Assembly: GCF_033097485.1 (NCBI RefSeq)
Contig: NZ_AP028634.1
Span: 186,001 to 250,000 of the forward strand
Origin: Pyrofollis japonicus
GTDB lineage: Archaea > Thermoproteota > Thermoprotei_A > Sulfolobales > Pyrodictiaceae
Length of the DNA stretch: 64,000 nt
Reading direction: 5' to 3'
The translations under genes and the position numbers were made by a program. Within the stretch, counting starts at the first letter, position 1. Every line of letters starts with the position of its first letter. A model generated the notes under the pieces. That model was not told where the DNA came from. It did no database searches and was given only the letters and a program-made list of their open reading frames with translations. Positions 6,710 to 20,079 of the stretch are shown here, in pieces.

Positions 6710-7444
6710 GTGCAGACGCGGCGCGGGAACGGTATTGTTTACGGAGAGGAGGTTGAGGCTAGTGGTTGGAGGCTTCGGCGCAACGGCGTAGCCCGGATAG
6801 AGTTCAGCGACCACGTTATGAGGCTGTGCATGGGGCCCACAGAGGCCCTCTACTACTCTAATGCTGAGATAAGCGATGGGGGCTTCGACAAGCTGCCCCA
6901 CAGTAGCGGCGTCCTAGAGGTCAATGCGAGGCTGACGAGGCTCCACTATGGGAGTGCTGGTTGGGGCTTCTGGAACTACAGCATGAGGATCGACATGAGC
7001 TACCCTGTCTGGTTCATATACCTGAATACTCCGGGGCCCTATCTTCTCCGCGGATTCTTCGCCCAGACCGGGAACGTGTTCACGCCCATAAGGCTTGATC
7101 ACCGGGATCGCTGGGAGAGGCTCTACTTCCGCCTAGTTGCCGCGCTGACAAGGCTAGGCATGCCATTAGTGCCTATCCGGATAACCTCTACGAGGCCAGC
7201 CATGCAGGACCTCGACCTAACAAAGCCCCATAACTATAGAATCGAGTGGAAGCACGGAGAAGCAAAATACTATATCGACGGGAAACTCGTTGCGAGGCAC
7301 ACGGCTAAACAGTTACAGACAAGAGTCGATATCTGGATAGACAACGCCGTCTATGAGCCGAGGAGAGGAGACCCTGGAAGAGTATATAGACACGTGACGA
7401 TGGAGAACAGGGAGGAGGCATGCCTCGAGATAATACACTTGTAG
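6710..7444 (+). CDS. GH16-like (concanavalin-type) beta-sandwich protein, probably non-catalytic
   Basis: 244 residues. The segment NYRIEWKHGEAKYYIDGKLV near residues 178-197 is the typical strand-turn of the laminarinase/GH16 and related lectin-like folds, and YGSAGWGFWNYSMRID near 83-98 matches the usual 'GxGFW' region. The catalytic ExDxxE motif of GH16 enzymes is absent at the expected place (MRIDMSYPVW), so sugar binding or an uncharacterised reaction is more likely than canonical glucanase activity. There is no signal peptide, which is odd for the family. The start is GTG with GGAGG about 11 nt upstream. The convergent PaREP1 gene ends one base after it. Confidence 0.65.
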   Translation: MQTRRGNGIVYGEEVEASGWRLRRNGVARIEFSDHVMRLCMGPTEALYYSNAEISDGGFDKLPHSSGVLEVNARLTRLHYGSAGWGFWNYSMRIDMSYPVWFIYLNTPGPYLLRGFFAQTGNVFTPIRLDHRDRWERLYFRLVAALTRLGMPLVPIRITSTRPAMQDLDLTKPHNYRIEWKHGEAKYYIDGKLVARHTAKQLQTRVDIWIDNAVYEPRRGDPGRVYRHVTMENREEACLEIIHL

Positions 7445-7445
7445 A

Positions 7446-7823
7446 CTAGGAGCGCTGTTTCTCTCCGAGAACCCTCCTAGCAATACTTAGTAGCTCCTCT
7501 ACGTAGCGGAGGCGGCGCCTAACCCGCTCCACGCCTAGCCGTGCCTCGTGGAAGTCTTCGACGTGCAGGAAGCACGCGTGATCCCAGTCATCATATATTC
7601 TTTTATCAATTGTCTCGGCGAGCCGCGCAGCAGCACCCTCAAGTAGCCGTAGAGTCCATCTCCCTCTCTCATTGGCCTCCTTGGCCTCGGGAAGCCCAAG
7701 TGCAGATGCCATCGCCTTTACCGCCTCCTCTGCAACCTTGTAGAGCTTCTCGGAGGCCTGGACAGCGTCACCCCTTTCAAGCAACTCTTTCGCCTCCTGC
7801 AAATAGTTTATTCGATAAGGCAT
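7446..7823 (-). CDS. PaREP1-family protein
   Basis: 125 residues, all helical. The pattern 'YLQEAKELLERGDAVQASEK', then 'LYKVAEEAVKAMASALGL', a WTLRLLEGAAARL helix, and 'WDHACFLHVEDFHEARL' is typical of PaREP1, a family of small repeat-borne proteins expanded in Thermoproteota and related to HEPN folds. The gene starts at ATG 7823. HEPN relatives are often toxin or nucleotide-binding partners, but no catalytic RX4-6H motif is obvious and no nucleotidyltransferase partner lies beside it. It is tail-to-tail with the GH16-like gene. Confidence 0.85.
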   Translation of the reverse strand: MPYRINYLQEAKELLERGDAVQASEKLYKVAEEAVKAMASALGLPEAKEANERGRWTLRLLEGAAARLAETIDKRIYDDWDHACFLHVEDFHEARLGVERVRRRLRYVEELLSIARRVLGEKQRS

Positions 7824-7988
7824 GTGACCCCCCGGATCCTACCTGGGAAAGGAATTTCTATTCGCCTGCCGCTTAATACCTTTAATATTGTTTATTGTTT
7901 TGATATATGACATTTTAATTAATAATGCTAAGCAAAGGTATGAAGGTGTAGTCTCATATATAGTTTTTCTTTAAATAGAAAATGCCAA

Positions 7989-8004
7989 TATATATATATA
8001 TAAT
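7989..8004 (+). promoter_or_regulatory. TATA tract of the surface-protein promoter
   Basis: An alternating TA tract lies in an AT-rich 200-bp gap. It is about 31-46 bases upstream of the CTG codon at 8035 and 70-85 bases upstream of the ATG at 8074. The spacing suits a short leader carrying the GGTGA ribosome site at 8024-8028. Confidence 0.4.
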
Positions 8005-8073
8005 TATCTTGAAATACTTCTTCGGTGAAGAATACTGAAAACTGAAATTATTATAACAATTTTAACAATACTT

Positions 8074-10479
8074 ATGATAGAATTACTTGTACCTCCAATT
8101 GCTACCAGTATAGCAGATGCCAGCTACGAAGGAGCAGGACTTAAGCTATGTGAACCGGTTATCATAGATCTATCGCCAATTGGTTTAAAACCAAGCGACG
8201 TTAATGCCTATCTAGTGTATGGCAATCGCCTCATACAATTACCTATATACTCTTTACCGAGAGGGTATATGAGTTCTGGTTCAATACTTTTAACTCTTCT
8301 TTATAATGGAAAACCAATAACAAAACTTAATAAAAGTGAAATTAATAATATTTTTAAAATTTTAAAAGAAAATAAAAAAGAATTAATAAAACCAATATAT
8401 CTAAAGAGAAAGATGGTAAAAACATACCTAGATAGCACAAAGGCTCTAGTTCTATTACCTTGTAATAATAATAAAACTAATTCTTCATTAATAAGAAACA
8501 TCATTTTGAATAAGAACGTCATAGCCATTTATAGAGCCAACGGATACGACATATTTTTAACAAGAAAACATACGCCAGCGCTGCCTGCCTTTTCAGATAT
8601 AGATAGAGAAGTAGTCAAAATATATCAAGGAAATATAAATGGAGATGCTAAAAACATTATCGAAGAGTATACAATTAATTGGAAGAAATTAATAAGCGCT
8701 ATACCTGAGAAAGCAAAATTAATTAAAATAATAGATAATAATATTAAAAAATATGAAACAATAGAGAATAGTGAAAATAGTATAAGTATAGAGTCGTTGG
8801 ATACCGGCTTATCTAATAACGAATACTTTATATGGGATGTAGTTCCTTGGGAGGCTGGAGTTTTTAATCATGAAGAAACTTATCTAGGGAACATAGAACA
8901 CGATAAAGGAGTTAAAATTACAAGTACATATTGGAGCGGAAGTGACAGTTTCCGTATACCTCCACATACCACTAGATACGAAGTATATCTAGTTATAACA
9001 GCTAATAAAACTAGTCCCCTACATATAATAATAGAACTTAATGGAGCGAAAATATATGATGACGACTATGTAGTTGAAGCTCACTCAACACTTTCTCTAG
9101 GCACAGTTGTTCATACGGTACCTGAGGAACCGGGCAATTATATAAACACATGGAGCAAGATAACATACTCAGTTACTATTACTAGTAGCGCTCAACCAGA
9201 TATAGTAATAAAAGCTGTACCAGTAGTGCGTTCATACATAGGAGATAACTCAGAGAATAATCTTGTCTATAGCTGGGAACTATACCTAGCAGGAATAGAT
9301 ACTAGCTCATACGAATCCATTAATCCGCCATTACGCATTATTCCTCAACATCACAATACTTTTCTACTTCGTACACCATTAGCATTCCTTGAAGGTACAG
9401 CAAGTTTTACACTAACTATATATAGCAGTAAAATCGTAAACAATAAAGCATATATATCAATAAATATAGATGGACTTCAAATATGCGATGGGTACACCTA
9501 CCAAGCCTATTATAGAGGTGCATGGCGCCAAGTTTATACCTGCAGCTTATCTACGTCATCAATAAACGATAAAATCATAAATGCGCTACGAGAAGGACGA
9601 CCACTTCTGTTGGACGTATATATAGATTCAAATGAGGGGCCGTGGTTCATAGACCATGGTGCAATACTATCTGCTCTTAGAAGAGCAAGACATTTTGAGA
9701 CCCAGCCGTATCTTTATAAAGCTGTTGCCTCATATGATACAAACGATGCCAGCAACTACCAGAACGTAGTATTTAACCCTATTACAAAGCTCTACTACGC
9801 ATTTCACAATAGTCTGTCCACAGTGCTTGTGGCCGATATTGAGACCTATGTGAGAGTCACGCGGCCAGCAATTAATATGGAAAATGATATAGGGCCTCTT
9901 GGGTACCTTCTTGTAAGTGTTCTAAACCCTGTATTTGATTCATTAGAGTATGGCCCGCTCAAAGTATATATTAATAGCGAGGATGTAAAAATCGATACAA
10001 AAACGACGAACACACAACTAGCTCCACCGACGGCCACAGCTAATGTAGTTGGTAAAGGCAGCATTAGTTACGGAACAACATATAGTCTTACTTCCACCAT
10101 ATCGTGGATGCTTGGGGCGGCAAGTATCTTCTTAAGCGGGGGAGTTGCAACCGCTTTTGGAGTCATCTCCATAATAATTGGTACTCCAAGTACCTTTTAC
10201 AAATCTGACACATTAAGCGCATGGGGATCCCAAATAAGCTTACTAGAGGATGAAGCAGAAGCTACCTGGAGTAGCGGAATAACTGAGCAGCATTATAATC
10301 TAGGAATTATATTAGATTGCAACATTGTTCCCCATAACTCCTGGCAAAATGATGGCATAACCATAACCACTAATATACAGAGCGAGCTAGCAATATTAGA
10401 GGGCTATACAAGTAATCTTAATTTCAATACATTAAGTGCGGAGGCAAGCCTTTATGTCCCAAGCATATCGTCATCTTAA
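8074..10479 (+). CDS. Very large AT-rich secreted protein of unknown family
   Basis: 801 residues from the first ATG. The N-terminus IELLVPPIATSIADA resembles the end of a signal peptide; reading could begin at a CTG at 8035, which adds K-T-E and a hydrophobic run and has GGTGA 6 nt upstream, giving a textbook signal peptide. The body is rich in Asn, Ile, Ser, Thr and Tyr and is probably beta-strand with many sequons. Near residues 670-710 there is one strong hydrophobic stretch (ISWMLGAASIFLSGGVAT) that may be a membrane or amphipathic segment. Codon use is far more AT-rich than neighbouring housekeeping genes. No family recognised. Confidence 0.75.
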   Translation: MIELLVPPIATSIADASYEGAGLKLCEPVIIDLSPIGLKPSDVNAYLVYGNRLIQLPIYSLPRGYMSSGSILLTLLYNGKPITKLNKSEINNIFKILKENKKELIKPIYLKRKMVKTYLDSTKALVLLPCNNNKTNSSLIRNIILNKNVIAIYRANGYDIFLTRKHTPALPAFSDIDREVVKIYQGNINGDAKNIIEEYTINWKKLISAIPEKAKLIKIIDNNIKKYETIENSENSISIESLDTGLSNNEYFIWDVVPWEAGVFNHEETYLGNIEHDKGVKITSTYWSGSDSFRIPPHTTRYEVYLVITANKTSPLHIIIELNGAKIYDDDYVVEAHSTLSLGTVVHTVPEEPGNYINTWSKITYSVTITSSAQPDIVIKAVPVVRSYIGDNSENNLVYSWELYLAGIDTSSYESINPPLRIIPQHHNTFLLRTPLAFLEGTASFTLTIYSSKIVNNKAYISINIDGLQICDGYTYQAYYRGAWRQVYTCSLSTSSINDKIINALREGRPLLLDVYIDSNEGPWFIDHGAILSALRRARHFETQPYLYKAVASYDTNDASNYQNVVFNPITKLYYAFHNSLSTVLVADIETYVRVTRPAINMENDIGPLGYLLVSVLNPVFDSLEYGPLKVYINSEDVKIDTKTTNTQLAPPTATANVVGKGSISYGTTYSLTSTISWMLGAASIFLSGGVATAFGVISIIIGTPSTFYKSDTLSAWGSQISLLEDEAEATWSSGITEQHYNLGIILDCNIVPHNSWQNDGITITTNIQSELAILEGYTSNLNFNTLSAEASLYVPSISSS

Positions 10480-10672
10480 GCTAAAACTAAGAATAAAATA
10501 CCATTATTTTTTAAAATCATTTCATATATAATATATTATTCTTACATAATAAATAGTAAAAATGTGACTTTAGACTGTGTCTTATTGTCCTATGAAAACA
10601 CTATATAGACTATATAGTATTGTTCTCCAGATAGGATATAATAAGAGGGCTTGACAACTACGGGGAAGAGTT

Positions 10673-11425
10673 TTGAAACTTAACATTGACGAAAAGGTAG
10701 CATTGTTTCTAAAGACTCTAGCCATATCATTCTTCGCAGCATTAATCGGACTTATAATCTCATCTATTAAGTGTAGCACAAGTTGTAATGTGTTCTTGTC
10801 TAGACCGTTAACAAACGAGTGGCAACATCACATCTTAATGGCTGTTCTTATAGATTCTTTGTCTCGTCCAGCTCCGCTTCTCGTGCTGTTGACAGGTGCT
10901 CTAGCTTATTCGCTTAAAGCAAGTAGATTGCATAGACTAGTTAGGAGCATATTATTTGTTCTTGTCACCTATTACTGCTTCGCCCTAGCTGGCTTCCTTG
11001 CATTTGCCTTACCGCTGCTCATTAACATGCAGATTCTCCTTAGCAATTATTTCGTATTCTCACTTATCTATAATGCATTTATTTTAGTGGGCATTATTGT
11101 CGCTGTAGCCTTAGCCCTAAAAATCATTAGGAGAGCGAATGGATGTCGTTATTCTTGGCATAGCACTATTATTGCAGCTCTTGCGGTACTCTTTGTAGCA
11201 GTTATTGTGAGACTCATAACTGAGGCCTTGCTGAGGCCTCTCAGCATAGAGCTGTATAGCTGTGCCTGCAGAATACCACCCGGTTACTTTGCTTTGCAGG
11301 GATCTGTGCTGGAGGGAGGCAATCTGTTGAAAGTAACTCTTGCATCGTTTATCGCTTCGTGGCTTTATGGTTTTGTACTTCTATCTCTATTAGTGAAGAG
11401 TAGGTGCACCTTGACTAGGTATTAG
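10673..11425 (+). CDS. Six-helix membrane protein, unknown
   Basis: A 250-residue integral membrane protein with about six hydrophobic helices, for example LAISFFAALIGLIIS, VLLTGALAYSL, FALAGFLAFALPLLI, FILVGIIVAVALAL, IIAALAVLFVAVIV and LYGFVLLSLL. It starts at TTG behind GGGGAAGAG. The C-terminus overlaps the convergent kinase gene by 11 bases. It lies immediately downstream of the giant secreted protein and could help anchor or export it, but this rests on position only; no known family is evident. Confidence 0.65.
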   Translation: MKLNIDEKVALFLKTLAISFFAALIGLIISSIKCSTSCNVFLSRPLTNEWQHHILMAVLIDSLSRPAPLLVLLTGALAYSLKASRLHRLVRSILFVLVTYYCFALAGFLAFALPLLINMQILLSNYFVFSLIYNAFILVGIIVAVALALKIIRRANGCRYSWHSTIIAALAVLFVAVIVRLITEALLRPLSIELYSCACRIPPGYFALQGSVLEGGNLLKVTLASFIASWLYGFVLLSLLVKSRCTLTRY

Positions 11426-13379
11426 AGCATTTCTCGTTGCAAGTGCTCCATTTTCTGGGCTCGTTGCCCGCTAGGCAGGCTAGGCATGCTGCGACTCTGC
11501 TCGCGTCCGGCCTTTCTCGCGGATTGTCTGAGAGCATTTTTCCGAGTAGGAGCCGTAGCTGGCTAGGGGCGTCTCTCAGCATCCTTTCTATCTTTGAGGT
11601 ATCGCATACTAGGCCTCTTTGCTCGTCTAGGCGGCACATGAGCTTGTGCTTCAGCGTTATTACTTGGCGGTGCTCTAGGCCTGCTAGTAGCTGGAGCAGG
11701 ATTATGCCGAGGCTGTAGACGTCTTGGCTGGGCTCGGCTACTGGCGCCTTTGAGCATATCGGCGAGTTTCTCTTACCGAGCTCGTTGCAGACCAGGTCGT
11801 AGGCTTCTAGCTCTGGCGCCGCATAACCCGGTGTGAGCTGCATTACTGGGCTCCCTATCCTTACTGCTGCGCCCAGGTCGGAGAGCTTGGGCACGGTCTT
11901 GGCTTGCTCTGGTCTCAGCAGTGCCTCGTAGAACGCGCTGGCAAGGAGCCTGGGGTTTGCGGCGGGCCTCGTGGTGAATAGTATGTTTTCTGGCTTGAGG
12001 TCTCCGTGGACATAGCCGCTTCCATGCACGTGTGCTAGGGCCTTGGCTATTACCGCGCCTAGTGCTGCTACTACTCTCACCCAGTCGCGGTTATCGGGCC
12101 TCGCCAAGTGCAGCCTCTTTGCCTCCTCGAGTAGCTTAGAGAGGCTCCCACCGCCAAGATACTCCATTATTATCGCGGGCGGGGAGACCATGTATATCTC
12201 GAAGCTGTCCGTGCGGACAGCCTTAGCTAGACGCTCGGAGTCTATGTGAATAGCCTTTAGCCTCACGACGTAGGGGCTCTTCTCGCTGAGTTCTCGGAGG
12301 CTTAGCGCCTCCCGCTCAAGGTCGCGAGCGACCATTAGCACGTCTCTCACAAGCCTACTAGAAGTAGTGCCACCAGCACCGCTGCCCACAGGGATCGGGA
12401 CTAGGAGCTTTATTGCAGCCTTGTCGCCGGGATCCTCTCTTGCATGCGCGCGCAGCACTACTCCGAAGCCGCCACTCCCAATGAATTCTTCGACCACGTA
12501 GCCGTGTATCTCCCTGCCCACCAAGCACTTCTCGACGACCTCTCTACGGTTCTTGGCGAACTCGGACAGCCTCACCGATGAGCACTCCTCCCTCCTCTCG
12601 TCAGCCCCGGCCTCTTCCCGGGTAGGCGGGGACACGGCGACCGTGCTGTGTGCCACGTCTTCGCGCCGGGCCATGTGCGGCCGCACATATGCTTCGGCGA
12701 CTGGTCTCGGCTCGGCGCTACCTGGGACACGTATCGGGGCCTGCGGCTCCATGGTTGCTTCATGCTCTCTGTGTTTTCTCAGCACGAGAGCTAGGTGGAT
12801 TACGAGGGCCGAGCCCGTGTAGTAGAGGAGGGCCTCATACACTGTGGTGTTGTACCCGGCTATGCTCAGGCTTATGCTGGTCGGAGCCGGTAAGCCAAGC
12901 ATATCCCACAGGGCGTCGTAGAGAGCGTAGAGTAGTAGCGGTACCCCGATAACCGGGTTCGTTGACGCGGAGAGCCCTAGCCCGAGAGCCATAAGGGGTG
13001 TCGAGGGATAGTAGGGGGTGAGCGGCTTAGCTGCTTCAAGCAGGGCGCCAGCCTGGGGATACCTCGAGGCGGCCCAGGCGGCTATGCCTGGGAGCAGGGG
13101 CGCCAAGAGCCCGTAGAGCCCCATCAGTATGCCTAGCTTGCTCTTCCCAATGCTTAGCAGCACTAGGCCAGCGAAGGCCAACGTGTAGGCGATGAATGAG
13201 GAGACGAGGAACAAGTCCGTGGGACTCCTAGGGGGGAGGTGGAGCCCGCCACCCAGCCACCACTTGAAGGGATCAATACTGCTTTCTCCAACAAACCTTG
13301 ATACGAGCAATATTGCCGCTACGCCGTATATTCCCAGGATTGCTAGCCCGTAGCCTACCACTCTACCCTTCTCGGCCAA
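11415..13379 (-). CDS. Membrane-anchored eukaryotic-like Ser/Thr protein kinase
   Basis: 654 residues. The N-terminal ~200 hold about five membrane helices, then a ~100-residue hydrophilic linker, then a kinase domain. Landmarks: glycine loop IGSGGFGVV (about 298-306), AIKLL (ATP Lys), EALSLREL (helix C Glu), YVHGDLKPENILF (catalytic loop near 456; HRD is HGD), SDLGAAV (DFG is DLG, near 500), TPGYAAPE (APE). The tail is Cys-rich (CLACLAG, STCNEKC) and could bind metal. It is the last gene of a minus-strand run after the VWA and phosphatase genes. By analogy with Sulfolobus Arn kinases it may phosphorylate the VWA/FHA proteins; that is inference. The start is TTG. Confidence 0.92.
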   Translation of the reverse strand: MAEKGRVVGYGLAILGIYGVAAILLVSRFVGESSIDPFKWWLGGGLHLPPRSPTDLFLVSSFIAYTLAFAGLVLLSIGKSKLGILMGLYGLLAPLLPGIAAWAASRYPQAGALLEAAKPLTPYYPSTPLMALGLGLSASTNPVIGVPLLLYALYDALWDMLGLPAPTSISLSIAGYNTTVYEALLYYTGSALVIHLALVLRKHREHEATMEPQAPIRVPGSAEPRPVAEAYVRPHMARREDVAHSTVAVSPPTREEAGADERREECSSVRLSEFAKNRREVVEKCLVGREIHGYVVEEFIGSGGFGVVLRAHAREDPGDKAAIKLLVPIPVGSGAGGTTSSRLVRDVLMVARDLEREALSLRELSEKSPYVVRLKAIHIDSERLAKAVRTDSFEIYMVSPPAIIMEYLGGGSLSKLLEEAKRLHLARPDNRDWVRVVAALGAVIAKALAHVHGSGYVHGDLKPENILFTTRPAANPRLLASAFYEALLRPEQAKTVPKLSDLGAAVRIGSPVMQLTPGYAAPELEAYDLVCNELGKRNSPICSKAPVAEPSQDVYSLGIILLQLLAGLEHRQVITLKHKLMCRLDEQRGLVCDTSKIERMLRDAPSQLRLLLGKMLSDNPRERPDASRVAACLACLAGNEPRKWSTCNEKCSNT

Positions 13380-13446
13380 GGTCTGGATAATCCCTCACAG
13401 CTATAGAGGGGTGCTCGCTGAGGGAGCGCCTCCTCCCTGCTTATCC

Positions 13447-14460
13447 CTAGGTCTCCCTTGTAGATGCCTCCCTTGCTTCTCCTTTATAGATGTAGGGCCT
13501 CAGCTTACCCTCCTCAAGGTCTACGAGGAGTACTGCTGCGCGGCGCTTATGGTAGAGCGAGGAGAACACGGTTACAACGCTGTACTCTAGGCTATCGAGC
13601 CCCATCTCTCCCGCTAATGTTGTTTGCTTGCCGTCCTGGAGCCAAACATGGGTTCCATCTACGACCTCGTGCCCCCTAATAATGATGCCGAGGTCGTTTG
13701 CTTCGAGAAAGCTCCTCCAAGCCGCCTTGCCGTAGAGATATGTGCCAGGGCCCCGGGGCCCTGGGAGAAACCAGTCAATCGTCCCCCTTGGGTCGTTCCA
13801 CAAGAGCTGGGCCACGAGGGGACTCGTCTTGAGGAGGCCAAGGGCCTCTTCACTGTTCTTGATCTTGGCGGCCTCTTTCTCTAGGTCGTCTAGGAGGATC
13901 GGGTCCTCGGGTGAAAGGCTGCATCTGCGGCAAGGTATGCCGGCATGGACAAGCACTATGGGCTCCGCGACCACAGCTACCGGCATGGAGGCGTAGAGGG
14001 CGGCGACGTAGCCGAGGTACTCCTCACCCCTCTTCCTAACAGCCTCCTCGAAGAAGCCGTAGGCAGCGTTCATCTCCGGGTCCTCATGGTTTCCTCGGAG
14101 CAGGTAGACCCTATCCCTCTCATCTACGAGCCTCTCCAGGAGGAGCTCGAGGTTCTCAACGCCGCGCGGCCCCCGGTCAACATAGTCACCTATGAATATG
14201 ACTGCATCTACGTCTTCCTCGTGGGCCAGCTTTAGAGCCCACTCCGAGACCTCGGGGAACCCGTGCGTGTCCCCGACAACTATGAATCGCCTAGCGCCTA
14301 GCCTTAGAATCGGCGGCTGCTCCGCCAAGACGCTTATGGCTTCACGGAATAGCTCGGCGTAGCCACCGGCTTCCTCGGGGGCTCTTGCCGCGCCGAGGCC
14401 CGTCTCGTCAGGGACTTCTTCTCCGGGTAGCTCGTTGTAGGCCTCCGTGCTGTCCCGCAT
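13447..14460 (-). CDS. PPP-family Ser/Thr protein phosphatase
   Basis: A metallophosphatase with all PPP signatures: GDTHG (about residue 63), GDYVDRG (about 92), LRGNHED (about 121), VLVHAG and IIRGHEVV. These residues bind two metal ions and the phosphate. I place the start at ATG 14460 because GAGGAGG is about 8 nt upstream; a TTG at 14490 is possible. The first ~50 residues are acidic and non-conserved. Lying between the VWA gene and the kinase gene on the same strand, it is the natural eraser of the marks written by that kinase. Crenarchaeal PP2A-type enzymes are known to influence archaellum regulation in Sulfolobus; the same role here is inferred. Confidence 0.93.
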   Translation of the reverse strand: MRDSTEAYNELPGEEVPDETGLGAARAPEEAGGYAELFREAISVLAEQPPILRLGARRFIVVGDTHGFPEVSEWALKLAHEEDVDAVIFIGDYVDRGPRGVENLELLLERLVDERDRVYLLRGNHEDPEMNAAYGFFEEAVRKRGEEYLGYVAALYASMPVAVVAEPIVLVHAGIPCRRCSLSPEDPILLDDLEKEAAKIKNSEEALGLLKTSPLVAQLLWNDPRGTIDWFLPGPRGPGTYLYGKAAWRSFLEANDLGIIIRGHEVVDGTHVWLQDGKQTTLAGEMGLDSLEYSVVTVFSSLYHKRRAAVLLVDLEEGKLRPYIYKGEAREASTRET

Positions 14461-14641
14461 AGATGTAAGCCTCCTCGCCGTGGCTTCCAAGCTCTCTGGC
14501 TTGGCTTATCTCAGCTTGTTTCCCGGCTTAAAAGCAGGGAGGACCATGCGTAAACAAGTTGGGCTCAATCATGTCTGCCTTGGCGATAGTGGCGGCAGAA
14601 AAACGAGGCAATACAGTGGCAAAATCTTTGGAGACAGGGTG

Positions 14642-15820
14642 CTACTTTCTTATCCTCTTCGTCGCCTCGCTTAGGAGCCTCCTCGTGGCCTCCTCGGCCT
14701 CGCTGCTGCCGAGCCTCTTAGTGGCCTCAGCGGTCTCTAGTAGCCTCTTAGTCTCAACCACTAGGTCTATCCTCTTAGTCTTCTCAGCCTGCTTCTCCGC
14801 CTCCACTAGCCTCTTCGTAGCAGCGTCTATGTCTCCTCTCAGGAGGAGGCGGCGTGCCTCCTCGAGATAGGCGTGGTAGAGATAGGTGTCGTATACCTCC
14901 CTGTTTATGCCCTTCACGTATTCTTCGCGGCTCGGCGCTGGCTCCACTGTGTAGCTGAAGCTGTGTGTCTCCCTCTTCCCGGTCACAGGGTCCTCGTAGC
15001 TGACGTGCACCCTGGCTACTTCGCCCCGGTGGTTGGCGGGTATTGTTACCTCGCCGTAGATCTCTAGGCTCTCGTCTCGGAGGACGGGTATCGTTATTGT
15101 TAGCTCGTCGTATCCGAGGAGCCTGGCCTCGCCCTCGATGGGCTCAACTGTTAGCTCGAAGTCCTTCGCATAGGCCTCTGGGGCAGCGGTCTCCTCGAAT
15201 GCCTCTACCAGTTTCTCTACCTCGGCCTCCCCCACGTGCTCCATGTACCCGTTACCCATGTCCGCGATGAGGGCTAGTAGCTCCTTGTTGTAGTCCAGCC
15301 CGACGCCTATCGCATAGGCCTTCATTTTCCGCGGCCACTTGAGGCGACGATACTCCTCGGGGTCGCTCTTATCCGTGGGACGTCCATCGGTAACTACGAC
15401 TATGTACCCTGGCTCTGGATAAGCATTGGCTATCTCGATCGCCTTTACTAGTGCACGGTAGAGCGGGGTCCCATCGTCCGGTATGATGCTCCTAACCGCT
15501 GCTATTATCTCGTCCCTTGCCTCGCCCACGTCGCGGTGAACAACCAGCTCCTTGGCGAAAAGGCCACCGAGGCCAAACGCTATCAACGTGACATAGTTGC
15601 CAGGAGGCATAGACTCAACGAGGCGCTCCACAGCCCTCTTAGCAGCATCCATCTTCCCGGCCTTCTTCATGGAGCCACTGGCGTCGAGCAAAACGATGTA
15701 GTGAAGCCCCTTCACCGGCACCTTGCCGCTAACAGGGACAATAGTCACGCGGAAAGCAGCCTTAACGGGAGAAACGAAGCTGTAGCGGTGACTCTGCTCA
15801 AAACGAACCTCGAGAGGCAT
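14642..15820 (-). CDS. VWA-domain protein, ArnB-like
   Basis: About 392 residues. A von Willebrand A domain occupies the N-terminal half, with the MIDAS motif LLDASGSM near residues 42-49 and VVTDGRPT further on; a beta-sandwich region follows, then a helical C-terminus. The last 60 residues contain six T-[K/R]-R-[L/I] motifs (TKRL, TKRI, TKRL, TKRL, TRRL, TKRI) at 8-13 residue spacing, which look like tandem kinase targets. Architecture and the divergent FHA neighbour match Sulfolobus ArnB, a phosphorylated partner of ArnA. The start is ATG 15820; a GTG at 15838 is the alternative. Cytosolic: no signal peptide. Confidence 0.88.
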   Translation of the reverse strand: MPLEVRFEQSHRYSFVSPVKAAFRVTIVPVSGKVPVKGLHYIVLLDASGSMKKAGKMDAAKRAVERLVESMPPGNYVTLIAFGLGGLFAKELVVHRDVGEARDEIIAAVRSIIPDDGTPLYRALVKAIEIANAYPEPGYIVVVTDGRPTDKSDPEEYRRLKWPRKMKAYAIGVGLDYNKELLALIADMGNGYMEHVGEAEVEKLVEAFEETAAPEAYAKDFELTVEPIEGEARLLGYDELTITIPVLRDESLEIYGEVTIPANHRGEVARVHVSYEDPVTGKRETHSFSYTVEPAPSREEYVKGINREVYDTYLYHAYLEEARRLLLRGDIDAATKRLVEAEKQAEKTKRIDLVVETKRLLETAEATKRLGSSEAEEATRRLLSEATKRIRK

Positions 15821-15983
15821 ATTGAGGCCAGCACCCACGAGAAGAGGCCACGAAGCCGGGACATAAGCACTGCCCTAGATACAGCATAAATGATTCTAAG
15901 AAACACTGGGCTTAACTACCACGACAGCCCCACACTATGCACGGAACACTCTGTGCTCCAATCTATTCTGAGGTGAGCCATGC

Positions 15984-16631
15984 ATGCCATGGAAGTGCCC
16001 CGTCTGCGGCCACGTAAACCCCGATGACAAAGAGTTCTGCGAAGTATGCGGCGCCAAGCGCCCCGACAACCCTGAGCAGCTCAAACTAGAGGAGCCCCGG
16101 CAGGAACAACCCCAGCCAGAGCAAGCCGAGGCCCTAGAGCAACAGCCAAGCGAGGCCGGAGAAGCCACCGAGGCCCCGGAGCCGGTGACAGAGCAAGCCG
16201 CAGAGGAGGAGGCTGGCCCCACGGAGGAAGAGGAGACACCCCCCGCCGCTGCGCCGGAGAAGCCAGTAGAGGAGAAGCCTGCGCCGACGACGCCCGAGAC
16301 AATCTACCTCGAGATAGTCAACGCGCCTGCCCAGGAACTCATAGGCAAGAGGATACCAGTCATGCTCAAAGTATTCCCCCAGGTAACCATCGGCAGGAGC
16401 CCCGAGAACGTGATAATAATACCCGACCCAACCGTGTCAAGGAAGCACGCAGCAATAAAGGTGGAGGAAGGCAAGATCGTCCTAGAGGACCTCGGAAGCA
16501 CGAACGGAACCTACGTGTATAGCCAGGAGACAGGGAGCTTCGAGAAGATAGAAAAGATAGAGCTAAAACCAGGCATGATAATAAGGCTCGGAGAACAAAC
16601 AATAATCAAAATAACAGCCGAATTAGCATAA
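15984..16631 (+). CDS. Zinc-ribbon plus FHA-domain protein, ArnA-like
   Basis: 215 residues in three parts: an N-terminal zinc ribbon (C5, C8, C19, C22 in two CxxC pairs), a long Glu/Pro/Gln-rich linker (about residues 28-105), and a C-terminal FHA domain with TIGRSPEN (about 133-140), VSRKHAAI (about 150-157) and LGSTNGT (about 171-177), the conserved phosphothreonine-binding loops. Sulfolobus ArnA has the same domain pairing and binds phosphorylated ArnB to repress archaellum genes. It is divergent from the VWA gene with about 160 bases between, so the two may share a control region. The ATG follows TGAGGTGAG. A T-rich stretch after the stop may terminate transcription. Confidence 0.93.
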   Translation: MPWKCPVCGHVNPDDKEFCEVCGAKRPDNPEQLKLEEPRQEQPQPEQAEALEQQPSEAGEATEAPEPVTEQAAEEEAGPTEEEETPPAAAPEKPVEEKPAPTTPETIYLEIVNAPAQELIGKRIPVMLKVFPQVTIGRSPENVIIIPDPTVSRKHAAIKVEEGKIVLEDLGSTNGTYVYSQETGSFEKIEKIELKPGMIIRLGEQTIIKITAELA

Positions 16632-16838: not shown

Positions 16839-19424
16839 ATGCGGTTTAGAGCACTGTCAACAGCAATAGCAGGTATCATAGTAATTGCATTTCTCCTAGT
16901 AGCAGTAGTCCCCCTGCTCATAAGCATATACCAAGGAACAATCAGCGCACATCTTGCTCTTAACAGCGAGCTAAACCGAAAAATCGGGGCAGCCGCACAG
17001 ACACTAAATATCACATTTGATCCACTAAGCTCTAATGATGTAGAAAAACACTATGTTATTAAGAATACTGGTCCAAAGGATATTGGAATTAAGTTCTACA
17101 TAATCACTGATAGTCGCAATATGTATATAGTTAAGGCAGGTGATACAGTAAATAATGATTTCCTGGTAAACAATATAGTGATACGAACCAAGCCACTACC
17201 ACCAGAAGACAAGATAGCGCTAAAAAATGATACAATAGTAGTAAAGGCGCCTCTCGGTAAAGCATTAGTCATTGTAAAGAACGGAGAACTACTGGGCTCG
17301 ATACTTACAAGCGGGGTATATGTTCATGCAATAGGAGGGACAAGTGCAAGCAGAGTAACTTATGCTGAGATAGCTAAGAGCCTAAAAATAGAATATTTTA
17401 ACCTAACCCCGTATAAAAGCATAGGAGATTTATTAAGAAGCGGAAGCCTAATAGTGTCAACAGATATTTCGGCAAAAGAAACAGATGAAAACATCCTCAA
17501 TAGTGGGGTAATATCCTCCTATTGTTTTAATGGCTCACCTACACAAATGAAGGAGGGAGGATTCACGCCAACAATTGATAGAGAGGAGCTAGATGCAGTC
17601 TTTATCCATAACTTGGGACCCATGCCTGGCATGATTATACTTGGAGGAAATGATCCAGACTATAAAAATGAATCAATCCACGTATCGCTATATGAACCAT
17701 ATTATTATTTAGCTCCATTCAAGAGCAATGAGCCCGGAATAATAGCCATGAAAACCACCAATGATAATAAGCCAGTCATATGCATCAGCTGGTTCACACC
17801 GGATAACAAAAGTATTGCACACTATTGTTGGCCGGAAGATACCGGGAATACTCTGAGAAATAAAGTTGAAGAATCCCTCCTACGAAATAGTGTAGAAGTA
17901 GATGAGAGCACCCCTACTGATAACCCCTTCAATGTTGAGAACGCCGATGCTAAAGTATTAGTAAGTCCAAGCATAGGCGTAATAGCATGGCTTCAGAAAA
18001 GTGACGGAAAAATAACCACCGTTTACTGTCCTCCCGACAATTATACAATAGATATCAATACCATGGTTATTCTCCCAAAACCTGATGGCTGTGCCGTACT
18101 TACGGCGGATAATACATATATGTACAAGGCAAAAGCCGGCTCTGGCATAACAATTACTCTGAAAAGCATGCAAGTACTCGTAGACGGAGGATATATGGGC
18201 TCTGCAGAAACCACTATTAACATTAATAGTGAAAACATTAAGCTACTACGTATAGGCAGCAGAGAAACTAACAATTATCCCCGTGTTCTAAAAATAAGCA
18301 ACATTCTTGTAAACAAGACCCTATTATTGCTTCATACTTATCTACTTGATAATGAAAACGGCTTAGCAGGAAGAGAAAAAGAGCTTAGCGGGGTAAACGC
18401 TTTCGGAGTATATTATTATTCTGGATACCTGTTAAATATTAGTGTAAAATACGAAAAACTAAGTACAACGAATATTTCAAAAGGCAACCCAGCATGCAAT
18501 TGCAAGGAAATTAAGATATTAGGAATAAAAACCGGTATTTATAAATGTACATGTACACCTATATGGGAACGTTATACCTACTCATACATATACAATTTAT
18601 ATGGTATAGGCGGGAAGCTCTCAGTCTTTGATTTTCAACAGGGTACTTCTTCTGGGCTTAGACCTTTCACAGTCATAGCTGATACAGATGGTAATGGGCT
18701 AGCGGAGCTCATATTTACAGATGAATGGTTTAAACCAGGCCTGGTACTAGATCTAAGGAATCTTTTTATAGAGATGGCTGGAGTGAATATTGGTGCAAAA
18801 AGTTACTTGATTTATGATTTTAGTGATGTTTTAGTTCCTGGCTCGGATCTTGTACCCCAGGATATATATCAATGGTTAGGAAGTGCTTTTGGACTCGGGC
18901 TTAGCGTTGACAGCACCTTCTACCATCCCGTTTACGGTGGTCTCGAGATGCCTTGGTATGGGTGCGTTGACAATGTTAGTGCTGGCTTTGTGTATTTCAA
19001 GTTCATGGGGAGAAGCGGTGAGTATGGCGTTAACGGAACCAATGCTGCGGAAATAGCACTATCTCTGCGTTATTCGTTTCACGACTCCGTGGGAGGCGGT
19101 ACTAGCGAGGTGCTTGATCCAAAGAAGGGTATATGGGGTGTCTTTGCTGTTGACGATGAAGGCTTCCTTGGAAGTAGCTATGTATATCTTTATGATAGAA
19201 TGCACGATCTTGGACATACATGGCCTCCTAGTAATAATTTTGTAAGCGATACTGTTTATCTACCACTTCCAAGGAAGCCTCGACTTTACTATGTAGCATT
19301 CGGGATTTCAGATCCATATTACTATACTCGTGCTAGCGGAACTTCCTATAAGATTGGCTATATTAATGATGTTGATTTCACTATAAGAATTGAAGGTGCA
19401 GGTATGTGGTATTTACATCGTTAA
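16839..19424 (+). CDS. Giant surface protein with pilin-like (class III) N-terminus
   Basis: 861 residues, AT-rich. The start MRFRALSTAIAGIIVIAFLL has the archaeal type IV pilin form: a short basic leader, R-A before the cleavage point, then L-S-T and one long hydrophobic helix. Archaeal prepilin peptidase (PibD) would cut such a site. The rest has Thr/Ser/Asn/Tyr-rich extracellular sequence with many sequons and a few Cys pairs (CNCKEIK, YKCTCTP). It is far larger than ordinary pilins or archaellins (100-300 residues). It is followed 20 bases later by a second pilin-like gene, suggesting a two-protein filament or adhesin complex. It begins about 200 bases after the FHA regulator gene. Confidence 0.75.
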   Translation: MRFRALSTAIAGIIVIAFLLVAVVPLLISIYQGTISAHLALNSELNRKIGAAAQTLNITFDPLSSNDVEKHYVIKNTGPKDIGIKFYIITDSRNMYIVKAGDTVNNDFLVNNIVIRTKPLPPEDKIALKNDTIVVKAPLGKALVIVKNGELLGSILTSGVYVHAIGGTSASRVTYAEIAKSLKIEYFNLTPYKSIGDLLRSGSLIVSTDISAKETDENILNSGVISSYCFNGSPTQMKEGGFTPTIDREELDAVFIHNLGPMPGMIILGGNDPDYKNESIHVSLYEPYYYLAPFKSNEPGIIAMKTTNDNKPVICISWFTPDNKSIAHYCWPEDTGNTLRNKVEESLLRNSVEVDESTPTDNPFNVENADAKVLVSPSIGVIAWLQKSDGKITTVYCPPDNYTIDINTMVILPKPDGCAVLTADNTYMYKAKAGSGITITLKSMQVLVDGGYMGSAETTININSENIKLLRIGSRETNNYPRVLKISNILVNKTLLLLHTYLLDNENGLAGREKELSGVNAFGVYYYSGYLLNISVKYEKLSTTNISKGNPACNCKEIKILGIKTGIYKCTCTPIWERYTYSYIYNLYGIGGKLSVFDFQQGTSSGLRPFTVIADTDGNGLAELIFTDEWFKPGLVLDLRNLFIEMAGVNIGAKSYLIYDFSDVLVPGSDLVPQDIYQWLGSAFGLGLSVDSTFYHPVYGGLEMPWYGCVDNVSAGFVYFKFMGRSGEYGVNGTNAAEIALSLRYSFHDSVGGGTSEVLDPKKGIWGVFAVDDEGFLGSSYVYLYDRMHDLGHTWPPSNNFVSDTVYLPLPRKPRLYYVAFGISDPYYYTRASGTSYKIGYINDVDFTIRIEGAGMWYLHR

Positions 19425-19443
19425 CTATAGGAGGGTAATAACG

Positions 19444-20079
19444 ATGCTAGAGCTACGAGGACAAGCTGAGCTTATATCAACAGTTATTATAGTGTCTGTT
19501 GCAATCATAATTGCTTTTGGCCTTATCTATTATTTTAATCCAATGATTTCTAGAAGTAGCGCTGAATACCAGCTTTCTAGCAAGTTATCACTAGTCGCTT
19601 CATCGCTTGTTATTTCACCGATTTCTTCATTAAATAAGACGGACAATGTTATTACCGTTTTATTTGTCAAGAATATGGGACAAGTTTCTTATAGGCTTTA
19701 TACCGGAGTAGTAGTACTTTACGGTAATATTCCTGTTAAAGATCAAGCCAATATAAGTATCTTTATTATGAGAGGGGATGCGGCCGTTGTGGATGGCAAT
19801 GAAGGATGGAAGAAAATAAATGGGTTTAATACTACTTCCCAATATGTATATATCTATATCAACTCTAAATACTATAGGCTTAGTGACTATGTTGGGCAGG
19901 TAAACTATACATTATTTGATCTTGGAGTTTTAGGGAACAGCAGATCGTCTATTGTCCTAAAGAATGTGCTTAGGGATCCTAATCCGATTTATACGTATGT
20001 TTTATCGTTTCTCGTCAGAGTTGGAGACAAGTATTACGAAGTTGGCCGCTTTCCCATATATTCCGGTGCCAGCCGCTAG
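19444..20079 (+). CDS. Pilin-like membrane/surface protein
   Basis: 211 residues from the ATG at 19444, which has GGAGGGT (19429-19435) 8 nt upstream; an in-frame ATG at 19390 would overlap the previous gene and lacks a ribosome site. The N-terminus MLELRGQAELISTVIIVSVA fits a class III signal peptide: R-G before the presumed cut, then one hydrophobic helix to about residue 31. The remainder is beta-rich, with SQYVYIYINSKYYRLSDY and several sequons, as in archaellin/pilin head domains. Probably co-transcribed with the giant gene before it. No assembly ATPase or platform protein lies in the window. Confidence 0.75.
   Translation: MLELRGQAELISTVIIVSVAIIIAFGLIYYFNPMISRSSAEYQLSSKLSLVASSLVISPISSLNKTDNVITVLFVKNMGQVSYRLYTGVVVLYGNIPVKDQANISIFIMRGDAAVVDGNEGWKKINGFNTTSQYVYIYINSKYYRLSDYVGQVNYTLFDLGVLGNSRSSIVLKNVLRDPNPIYTYVLSFLVRVGDKYYEVGRFPIYSGASR

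Follow-up and report, generated by a model that had tools for sequence, protein, structure and literature searches.

A locus of Pyrofollis japonicus, a heat-loving archaeon of the Pyrodictiaceae, at positions 11415-16631 of the 64,000-nucleotide stretch of DNA analysed here (the window), encodes a Ser/Thr kinase, a PPP phosphatase, ArnB and a divergent ArnA side by side, and we consider it probably an ArnA-ArnB phospho-switch with its own writer and eraser. Our analysis suggests a circuit that is complete in itself and independent of the swimming filament after which the module was named. The initial annotation had reported kinase, phosphatase, VWA and FHA genes together at this place, and had likened the VWA and zinc-ribbon/FHA proteins to ArnB and ArnA. 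Positions and domains were confirmed by Pfam and motifs, and the likeness is that of a true ArnA-ArnB module with linked kinase and phosphatase. On the reverse strand lie the putative writer, a Hanks-type Ser/Thr kinase of 654 aa (11415..13379; PF00069, E 2e-22), the putative eraser, a PPP-family (PP2A-like) protein phosphatase of 347 aa (13447..14490; PF00149, E 3e-24), and ArnB, the presumed substrate and scaffold, with a VWA domain (PF00092, E 1e-12), a beta-sandwich region and an ArnB_C helical bundle (14642..15838). The presumed reader, ArnA, has an N-terminal zinc ribbon, an acidic linker and a C-terminal FHA domain (PF00498, E 1e-19); its gene lies on the forward strand (15984..16631), divergent from the ArnB-PPP-kinase row. 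The 145 bp between arnB and arnA (15839..15983) showed no conserved motif in an alignment of four genomes.

The ArnB of the locus matches S. acidocaldarius ArnB (8S05_A) over its full length (E 1.9e-64) and, more weakly, the ArnE structure 5A8J (E 9.5e-37). In a tree it falls inside the ArnB clade (95/95), with its paralogue ArnE in a separate clade (96/91). The PF18677 (ArnB_C) score of 29.9 bits is above the curated cut-off of 26.3, the MIDAS (DASGS) is intact, and the predicted structure has four C-terminal helices (mean pLDDT 56, moderate confidence) and 8S05 as its top PDB match. ArnA matches 5A8I over residues 1-213 (E 3e-39); its zinc-ribbon cysteines C5, C8, C19 and C22 and its pThr-binding residues R138, S152, R153, T173 and N174 are invariant in the alignment, and the FHA motifs GRS, SRKH and STNGT are intact.

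Six T[KR]R[LI] motifs are spaced along the ArnB tail (14642..14826, reverse strand), at residues 341, 354, 363, 373, 385 and 393; 0 of 20000 shuffles reached that number. Nearly all ArnB proteins have four to six such motifs, two divergent ones have two to three and ArnE has one to two; in a comparison of 26 ArnB, five rungs of this threonine ladder were invariant or present in 25/26. FHA domains are generally sensitive to the +3 residue, which the shared T-[KR]-[KR]-[LI] sequence of the ladder fits, and the six tail threonines are predicted phosphorylation and FHA-docking sites. The ladder maps to T322, T335, T344, T354 and T375 of S. acidocaldarius ArnB, whose tail is phosphorylated by ArnC and whose phosphosites are T322, T335, T353, T363 and T375 (PMC12852372). 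From the many threonines that are phosphorylated in vitro, the comparative ladder singles out five or six that are conserved and share T-[KR]-[KR]-[LI], and in S. acidocaldarius it points to T354 rather than T353 as the conserved site.

The kinase retains its GSGGFG, AIK, HGDLKPEN, DLG and APE motifs and looks catalytically active; its kinase domain is C-terminal, at about residues 286-640, and follows an N-terminal region with ~5-6 transmembrane (TM) segments predicted from hydropathy. We rejected its identification as ArnC because of these segments and its placement in a 100/100 clade of its own in the tree and, since it is not an ArnC orthologue, its specificity for ArnB is assumed from linkage. 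A defence-system reading of the kinase was also rejected, as the PADLOC matches span the generic kinase domain and none was found for the other genes. All PPP motifs are present in the phosphatase (GDTHG, GDYVDRG, GNHE, VHAG, RGHE). In three genomes (G000, G001 and G004) the cluster-linked PPP is a second copy, with another PPP gene elsewhere in the genome, and in the PPP tree the Arn-cluster copies are not one lineage, the G011 copy resembling a housekeeping PPP. In S. acidocaldarius PP2A binds both ArnA and ArnB (PMC7472852), and in S. islandicus ups pili and DNA-damage genes are proposed to escape ArnAB repression once PP2A dephosphorylates ArnB (PMC10470591).

ArnB is present in 5/20 Pyrodictiaceae genomes, four of which keep the four genes together and near-contiguous. 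The ArnB-PPP-kinase row with divergent arnA is found in G000, G013 and G017, and in G004 with a 1.65-kb insert; in G011 the phosphatase gene is adjacent to arnB. Overall, PPP adjoins ArnB in four of the five, the exception being the interruption in G004. ArnB, ArnA and the kinase are found together in 5/5 genomes, compared with 0-1 of the 15 others (Fisher 6e-5 and 4e-4, kinship ignored), and the kinase is confined to ArnB genomes except in G001, also of the Pyrodictiaceae, whose contig stops just short of the expected ArnB. The grouping of ArnB, ArnA, kinase and PPP is not due to chance. The initial annotation had proposed comparing the cluster and its neighbours among relatives: the cluster is kept, the neighbours at 8-11 and 16.8-20 kb vary, and the switch stands.

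We also looked at synteny in the Sulfolobaceae, where a PPP gene lies between arnA and arnB in 19/30 genomes examined, and the idea that phosphatase linkage is unique to Pyrodictiaceae was rejected on this basis. In one genome (G200) an ArnC-clade TPR kinase directly follows arnB. Thus, the earlier statement that the Sulfolobus kinases and PP2A are encoded elsewhere fits S. acidocaldarius but not the group, and it is the linked membrane kinase that is the distinctive feature of the Pyrodictiaceae locus. As carriers of ArnA-ArnB, PMC5300886 names Sulfolobales only, whereas the module described here is found in Pyrodictiaceae.

The analysis establishes what the genes are, that their motifs are intact, that ladder and linkage are conserved and that the module is decoupled from the archaellum; the order of events and the repression step are carried over by analogy from the Sulfolobaceae literature. 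The membrane-anchored kinase would sense a signal via its N-terminal TM region and phosphorylate the T-[KR]-R-[LI] threonine ladder of the helical ArnB tail, and the ArnA FHA domain would dock on the resulting phosphothreonines. Docking would tighten an ArnA-ArnB contact that is otherwise loose and mediated by the zinc ribbon, and the tight complex would repress target genes. The co-encoded PPP phosphatase would strip the phosphates and lift the repression. That the linked kinase phosphorylates ArnB and that the phosphatase acts on ArnB we infer, and the targets presumably lie at other places in the genome, among genes for surface appendages or stress. Even for Sulfolobus, how the ArnAB complex acts on transcription has yet to be worked out (PMC12852372).

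Regarding the output, a general regulator of stress or DNA-damage responses, on the model of ArnA-ArnB in Saccharolobus islandicus, is a real possibility, if one we lean against; surface genes would then be one of many outputs. In that species ArnA represses ups pili, DNA-damage and metabolic genes (PMC10470591), and an ArnB occurrence independent of the archaellum would agree with such a role. However, the Pyrodictiaceae locus lacks an ArnE gene, the positive arm in S. islandicus, and the patchy presence of ArnB in the family speaks against an essential core role.

That the switch works in trans on the archaellum encoded in the same genome, as it does in S. acidocaldarius, seems to us somewhat unlikely. 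The initial annotation saw no archaellum genes, which is true of the window but not of the genome, where an arl operon (archaellin, KaiC-like ArlH, ArlI and ArlJ) lies at ~1.503-1.511 Mb, 1.3 Mb from the cluster, and archaellin is found in 4/5 ArnB-bearing Pyrodictiaceae. Yet G004 (99% complete) keeps the cluster without archaellin and ArlJ, five Pyrodictiaceae have archaellin without ArnB, 15/31 ArnB-bearing Sulfolobaceae lack archaellin, and no ArnB-archaellin association is seen order-wide (20/36 vs 75/178, P 0.15). ArnB without archaellin had been noted earlier for two species (PMC5300886). This presence/absence pattern led us to reject archaellum-dedicated control as a general rule: ArnAB is decoupled from the archaellum, as the near-complete relative and the Sulfolobaceae without one indicate, as the initial annotation had envisaged.

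The AT-rich genes reported to flank the cluster at 8.0-11.4 and 16.8-20.1 kb are indeed there. On the left, a low-GC segment adjoining the kinase (7446..11425) holds a PaREP1 gene (PF05942) and genes for an 801-aa protein and a 250-aa six-TM protein; two sister genomes, G004 and G001, lack the 8.0-11.4 kb genes at the equivalent position, and there a homologue of the 6710-7444 gene abuts the kinase directly. This synteny marks the left pair as a local insert and rules it out as a conserved partner. On the right, forward strand, lie genes for a large surface protein of 861 aa with a class-III-signal-like N-terminus (RALSTAIAGIIVIAFLL; 16839..19424) and its pilin-like partner of 229 aa (LRGQAELISTVIIVSV; 19390..20079; weak TIGR02537 match below cut-off), both candidate targets. 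Relatives of the 861-aa protein occur in 10/20 Pyrodictiaceae, two of them partial, and 229-aa homologues in 8/20. Profile searches including Pfam gave no family match for the 861-aa protein, its AlphaFold model (mean pLDDT 31) was unusable, and neither it nor the 801-aa protein had relatives in viral contigs.

It is unlikely that the switch acts on this adjacent giant pilin-like pair as a self-contained surface-structure switch. The pair follows arnA at 0.2 kb in the window and at 2.5 kb in G004, and is separated from the kinase by 8.3 kb in G013; it occurs in 5/5 ArnB genomes vs 3/15 others (P 0.004, kinship ignored) and agrees with ArnB presence in 7/7 genomes at least 88% complete; ArnAB is, moreover, a known repressor of pili genes in S. 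islandicus (PMC10470591). However, the pair adjoins the Arn genes in two genomes only, and between arnA and the pair G004 has an ATPase ORF and membrane-transporter-like ORFs. In G011 the pair is ~0.9 Mb from the Arn genes, and in G017 the two are on different contigs; G010, G015 and G002 (68-75% complete) have the pair, with ArnB not detected. By eye, a TATA-like element of the pair's own can be made out; no conserved promoter motif was seen upstream of the 861-aa gene. Of the suggestion that the cluster may switch a surface structure, the left genes thus drop out, and the right pair retains its co-occurrence with ArnB. That a membrane-kinase signal passes through the six-rung ladder to ArnA and so turns a giant pilin-like surface structure of Pyrodictiaceae on or off, with no tie to the archaellum, we regard as a rather doubtful conjecture.

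That kinase and phosphatase are neighbours through history alone and act mainly on other proteins, as the non-ArnC kinase and the housekeeping-like PPP of G011 might suggest, is most improbable given that PPP-ArnB linkage recurs in both families from different PPP lineages, that two unrelated kinase families are linked to ArnB and that the kinase is found only alongside ArnB, save in G001.

We believe that an ArnA-ArnB switch with its own writer and eraser is a useful object of study, as signal input, writer, eraser, substrate and reader form a compact locus testable with four proteins. It bears on how signals reach ArnA-ArnB and on the role of the module in non-swimming archaea.

Other systems also encode kinase, phosphatase and VWA and/or FHA proteins together: the bacterial TerY-P triad comprises a VWA protein, a PP2C phosphatase and a kinase, and PpkA-PppA-Fha of type VI secretion (T6SS) is another kinase/phosphatase/FHA set. 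Both use PP2C phosphatases and are not known to have ArnA or ArnB orthologues, whereas the phosphatase of the window is a PPP, of the same family and with the same catalytic motifs as Saci-PP2A/SiRe_1009, encoded between arnA and arnB in many Sulfolobaceae, and the Pyrodictium abyssi PPP phosphatases. Like ArnC and ArnD, the window kinase is a Hanks-type Ser/Thr kinase whose expected substrate is the ArnB tail; unlike ArnC (Saci_1193), which is soluble, has TPRs and forms its own clade, it has an N-terminal membrane region and belongs to a separate 100/100 clade. Among the closest is ArnA-ArnB, the archaellum/pili repression module of the Sulfolobaceae (Saci_1210/1211; 5A8I, 8S05), both proteins being full-length orthologous to the Pyrodictiaceae pair, with the same zinc ribbon-linker-FHA and VWA-sandwich-helical bundle architectures, MIDAS and conserved tail threonines. 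The gene order differs: the Sulfolobaceae have an ArnA-PPP-ArnB row, the Pyrodictiaceae, where the locus is without ArnE, an arnA divergent from ArnB, PPP and a linked membrane kinase.

The four genes at 11415-16631 form a real, well-conserved and self-contained variant of the known ArnA-ArnB switch. Pfam confirmed that kinase, phosphatase, VWA and FHA genes lie side by side, as the initial annotation had described, with all motifs intact. On the minus strand, the VWA (14642-15838), PPP phosphatase (13447-14490) and kinase (11415-13379) genes follow each other in this order with gaps of 67 and 151 bp among the three, while the zinc ribbon/FHA gene (15984-16631, plus strand) is divergent from this row, 145 bp away. 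By eye, TATA-like stretches are seen upstream of the phosphatase gene and of a neighbouring gene for an 861-aa protein, so more than one transcript is possible. The VWA protein matched Sulfolobus acidocaldarius ArnB (8S05) from end to end (1.9e-64) and the paralogue ArnE/vWA2 (5A8J) far more weakly (9.5e-37), and scored above the Pfam ArnB_C cut-off. A tree built from 45 VWA proteins placed the Pyrodictiaceae sequences, five in number, in one clade (100/100) within the ArnB group (95/95), separate from ArnE. ArnB 8S05 was also the first PDB match of the predicted model, which is of moderate confidence (mean pLDDT 56). The FHA protein matched ArnA (5A8I) across residues 1-213 (3e-39), and both the cysteines of the ArnA zinc ribbon and the residues of its FHA phosphothreonine pocket are invariant. 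Thus, the two proteins are orthologues of ArnB and ArnA, a stronger relationship than the likeness in domain architecture proposed earlier.

A previous study found ArnA/B in all Sulfolobales genomes analysed, and ArnC orthologues in all Sulfolobales having ArnA/B (PMC5300886); in a limited literature search we found no description of the ArnA-ArnB module in Pyrodictiaceae. Among 214 genomes of the order, full-length ArnB (>350 bits, A1 profile) was present in 5 of 20 Pyrodictiaceae and in 31 of 31 genomes of family f11, and was not found outside these two, where the best score was 139 bits. We infer that f11 corresponds to Sulfolobaceae, as its ArnA/ArnB/ArnE gene order is that of S. acidocaldarius. 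The four-gene arrangement recurs in relatives: all four genes are grouped in the window genome (G000, a single contig of 2.005 Mb, with the window at C1:186001-250000), G013 and G017, and also in the congeneric G004, with a 1.65-kb insert separating phosphatase and arnB. Part of it is kept in G011, where the phosphatase adjoins arnB, with arnA ~5 kb and the kinase ~9 kb off, and in G001 the contig breaks off after kinase and phosphatase, before the expected ArnB.

The view that the phosphatase and kinases are encoded elsewhere in Sulfolobus fits S. acidocaldarius-like genomes for the phosphatase (PP2A is elsewhere, with no PPP gene between arnA and arnB), but not Sulfolobaceae in general, as 19 of the 30 genomes examined have a PPP gene in that position. 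The S. islandicus locus tags of PP2A (SiRe_1009; PMC5682000) and ArnA (SiRe_1010; PMC10470591) agree with this linkage. Nor does it hold for the kinases in G200, a Sulfolobaceae genome with arnA, arnB and an ArnC-clade TPR kinase gene in one row (L133:7888-11383), the last directly after arnB; this gene order directly supports ArnC as the ArnB kinase. The enzymes linked to ArnB thus come from two different families of kinases and from several lineages of PPP (more than one), strong indirect evidence that they serve ArnB. The window kinase itself is not ArnC: it falls in its own clade (100/100), and its N-terminal region is predicted to contain about five or six transmembrane segments, which are lacking in the kinases of the ArnC clade. 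Since G000 (the window genome), G001 and G004 carry a second PPP gene elsewhere, the cluster phosphatase may be specialised there. The second gene of the window genome (L088:9983-10912, at about 1.110 Mb of G000:C1) sits in a neighbourhood common to the single PPP of other Pyrodictiaceae.

Within its final 60 residues, the window ArnB carries six T-[KR]-R-[LI] motifs (T341, T354, T363, T373, T385 and T393), a threonine ladder. Shuffled versions had a mean of 0.11 T[KR][KR][LIVM] motifs, with six reached in 0 of 20,000 shuffles, and the remaining window ORFs of at least 100 aa hold four in total. Ladder motifs number four to six in most of the 26 ArnB proteins, two or three in two divergent ones, one or two in ArnE, and none or one in VWA proteins that are more distant and belong to other families. 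In the alignment, T341, T354, T363, T373 and T393 line up with S. acidocaldarius T322, T335, T344, T354 and T375, positions that are either invariant or kept in 25 of the 26 sequences, while window T385 and S. acidocaldarius T363 represent the same rung, slightly shifted. Measurements in PMC12852372 have ArnC phosphorylating ArnB T353, T363 and T375 early and T322 and T335 late; the ladder is not mentioned in the parts of that paper that were searched. In the TT pair, it is T354 that is conserved and not T353.

The absence of archaellum genes noted earlier is correct within the window but not genome-wide, as an arl operon (archaellin, KaiC-like ATPase, T2SSE ATPase, T2SSF membrane protein) lies at about 1.503-1.511 Mb. 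Nevertheless, the independence of ArnAB from the archaellum is real, as the initial annotation had anticipated, and has already been published in outline (PMC5300886). G004 (99% complete) has the cluster and lacks archaellin and ArlJ. Archaellin occurs without ArnB in five Pyrodictiaceae and is lacking in 15 of the 31 ArnB-bearing Sulfolobaceae, and ArnB and archaellin are not associated across the order (P 0.15). The targets repressed by ArnA-ArnB in S. islandicus are ups pili and DNA-damage genes (PMC10470591). The ArlJ match of G013 is in two overlapping parts ~0.5 Mb apart (C1:640001-640957 and 147905-148702), which suggests an inversion breakpoint within the gene or an assembly fault.

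Of the flanking surface genes proposed as targets, those at 8.0-11.4 kb belong to a low-GC insert (7446-11425), because in G004 and G001 the homologue of 6710-7444 directly adjoins the kinase. The 6710-7444 gene is GH16-like (below the Pfam cut-off) and 77% identical in both. Besides a PaREP1-family gene, the insert encodes a protein of 801 aa and a six-TM protein of 250 aa; these two have no database relatives, nor has the former any in the viral contigs searched. The 861-aa (16839-19424, plus strand) and 229-aa pilin-like (19390-20079, plus strand) proteins have class-III-signal-like N-termini, and homologous pairs occur in eight Pyrodictiaceae including the window genome, in 5 of 5 genomes with ArnB versus 3 of 15 others (P 0.004, ignoring relatedness and influenced by incomplete genomes). 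The distance between the pair and arnA is 0.2 kb in the window and 2.5 kb in G004. In G013 the pair is separated from the kinase by 8.3 kb, but it is ~0.9 Mb off in G011 and on a different contig in G017. A functional tie to the ArnB switch is therefore suggested, not proven. A second G013 copy directly follows a tRNA-like sequence (L144, about 1200-1520), a hint that the two genes might be mobile or insert at a tRNA gene.

Orthology, motifs and synteny lend good support to the circuit logic proposed for the cluster, while the output of the circuit is left open. A more distant three-gene cluster of VWA, short FHA and soluble kinase genes occurs in five genomes of the order (L080:9600-12829; L081:8965-11895; L082:9199-12480; L083:8531-11731; L084:9750-12956), one of them from Pyrodictiaceae (G007). 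Unlike ArnB, its VWA protein is devoid of ArnB_C and threonine ladder; unlike ArnA, its FHA protein is short and has no zinc ribbon; and no PPP gene is adjacent. This cluster is a sister system to ArnAB.
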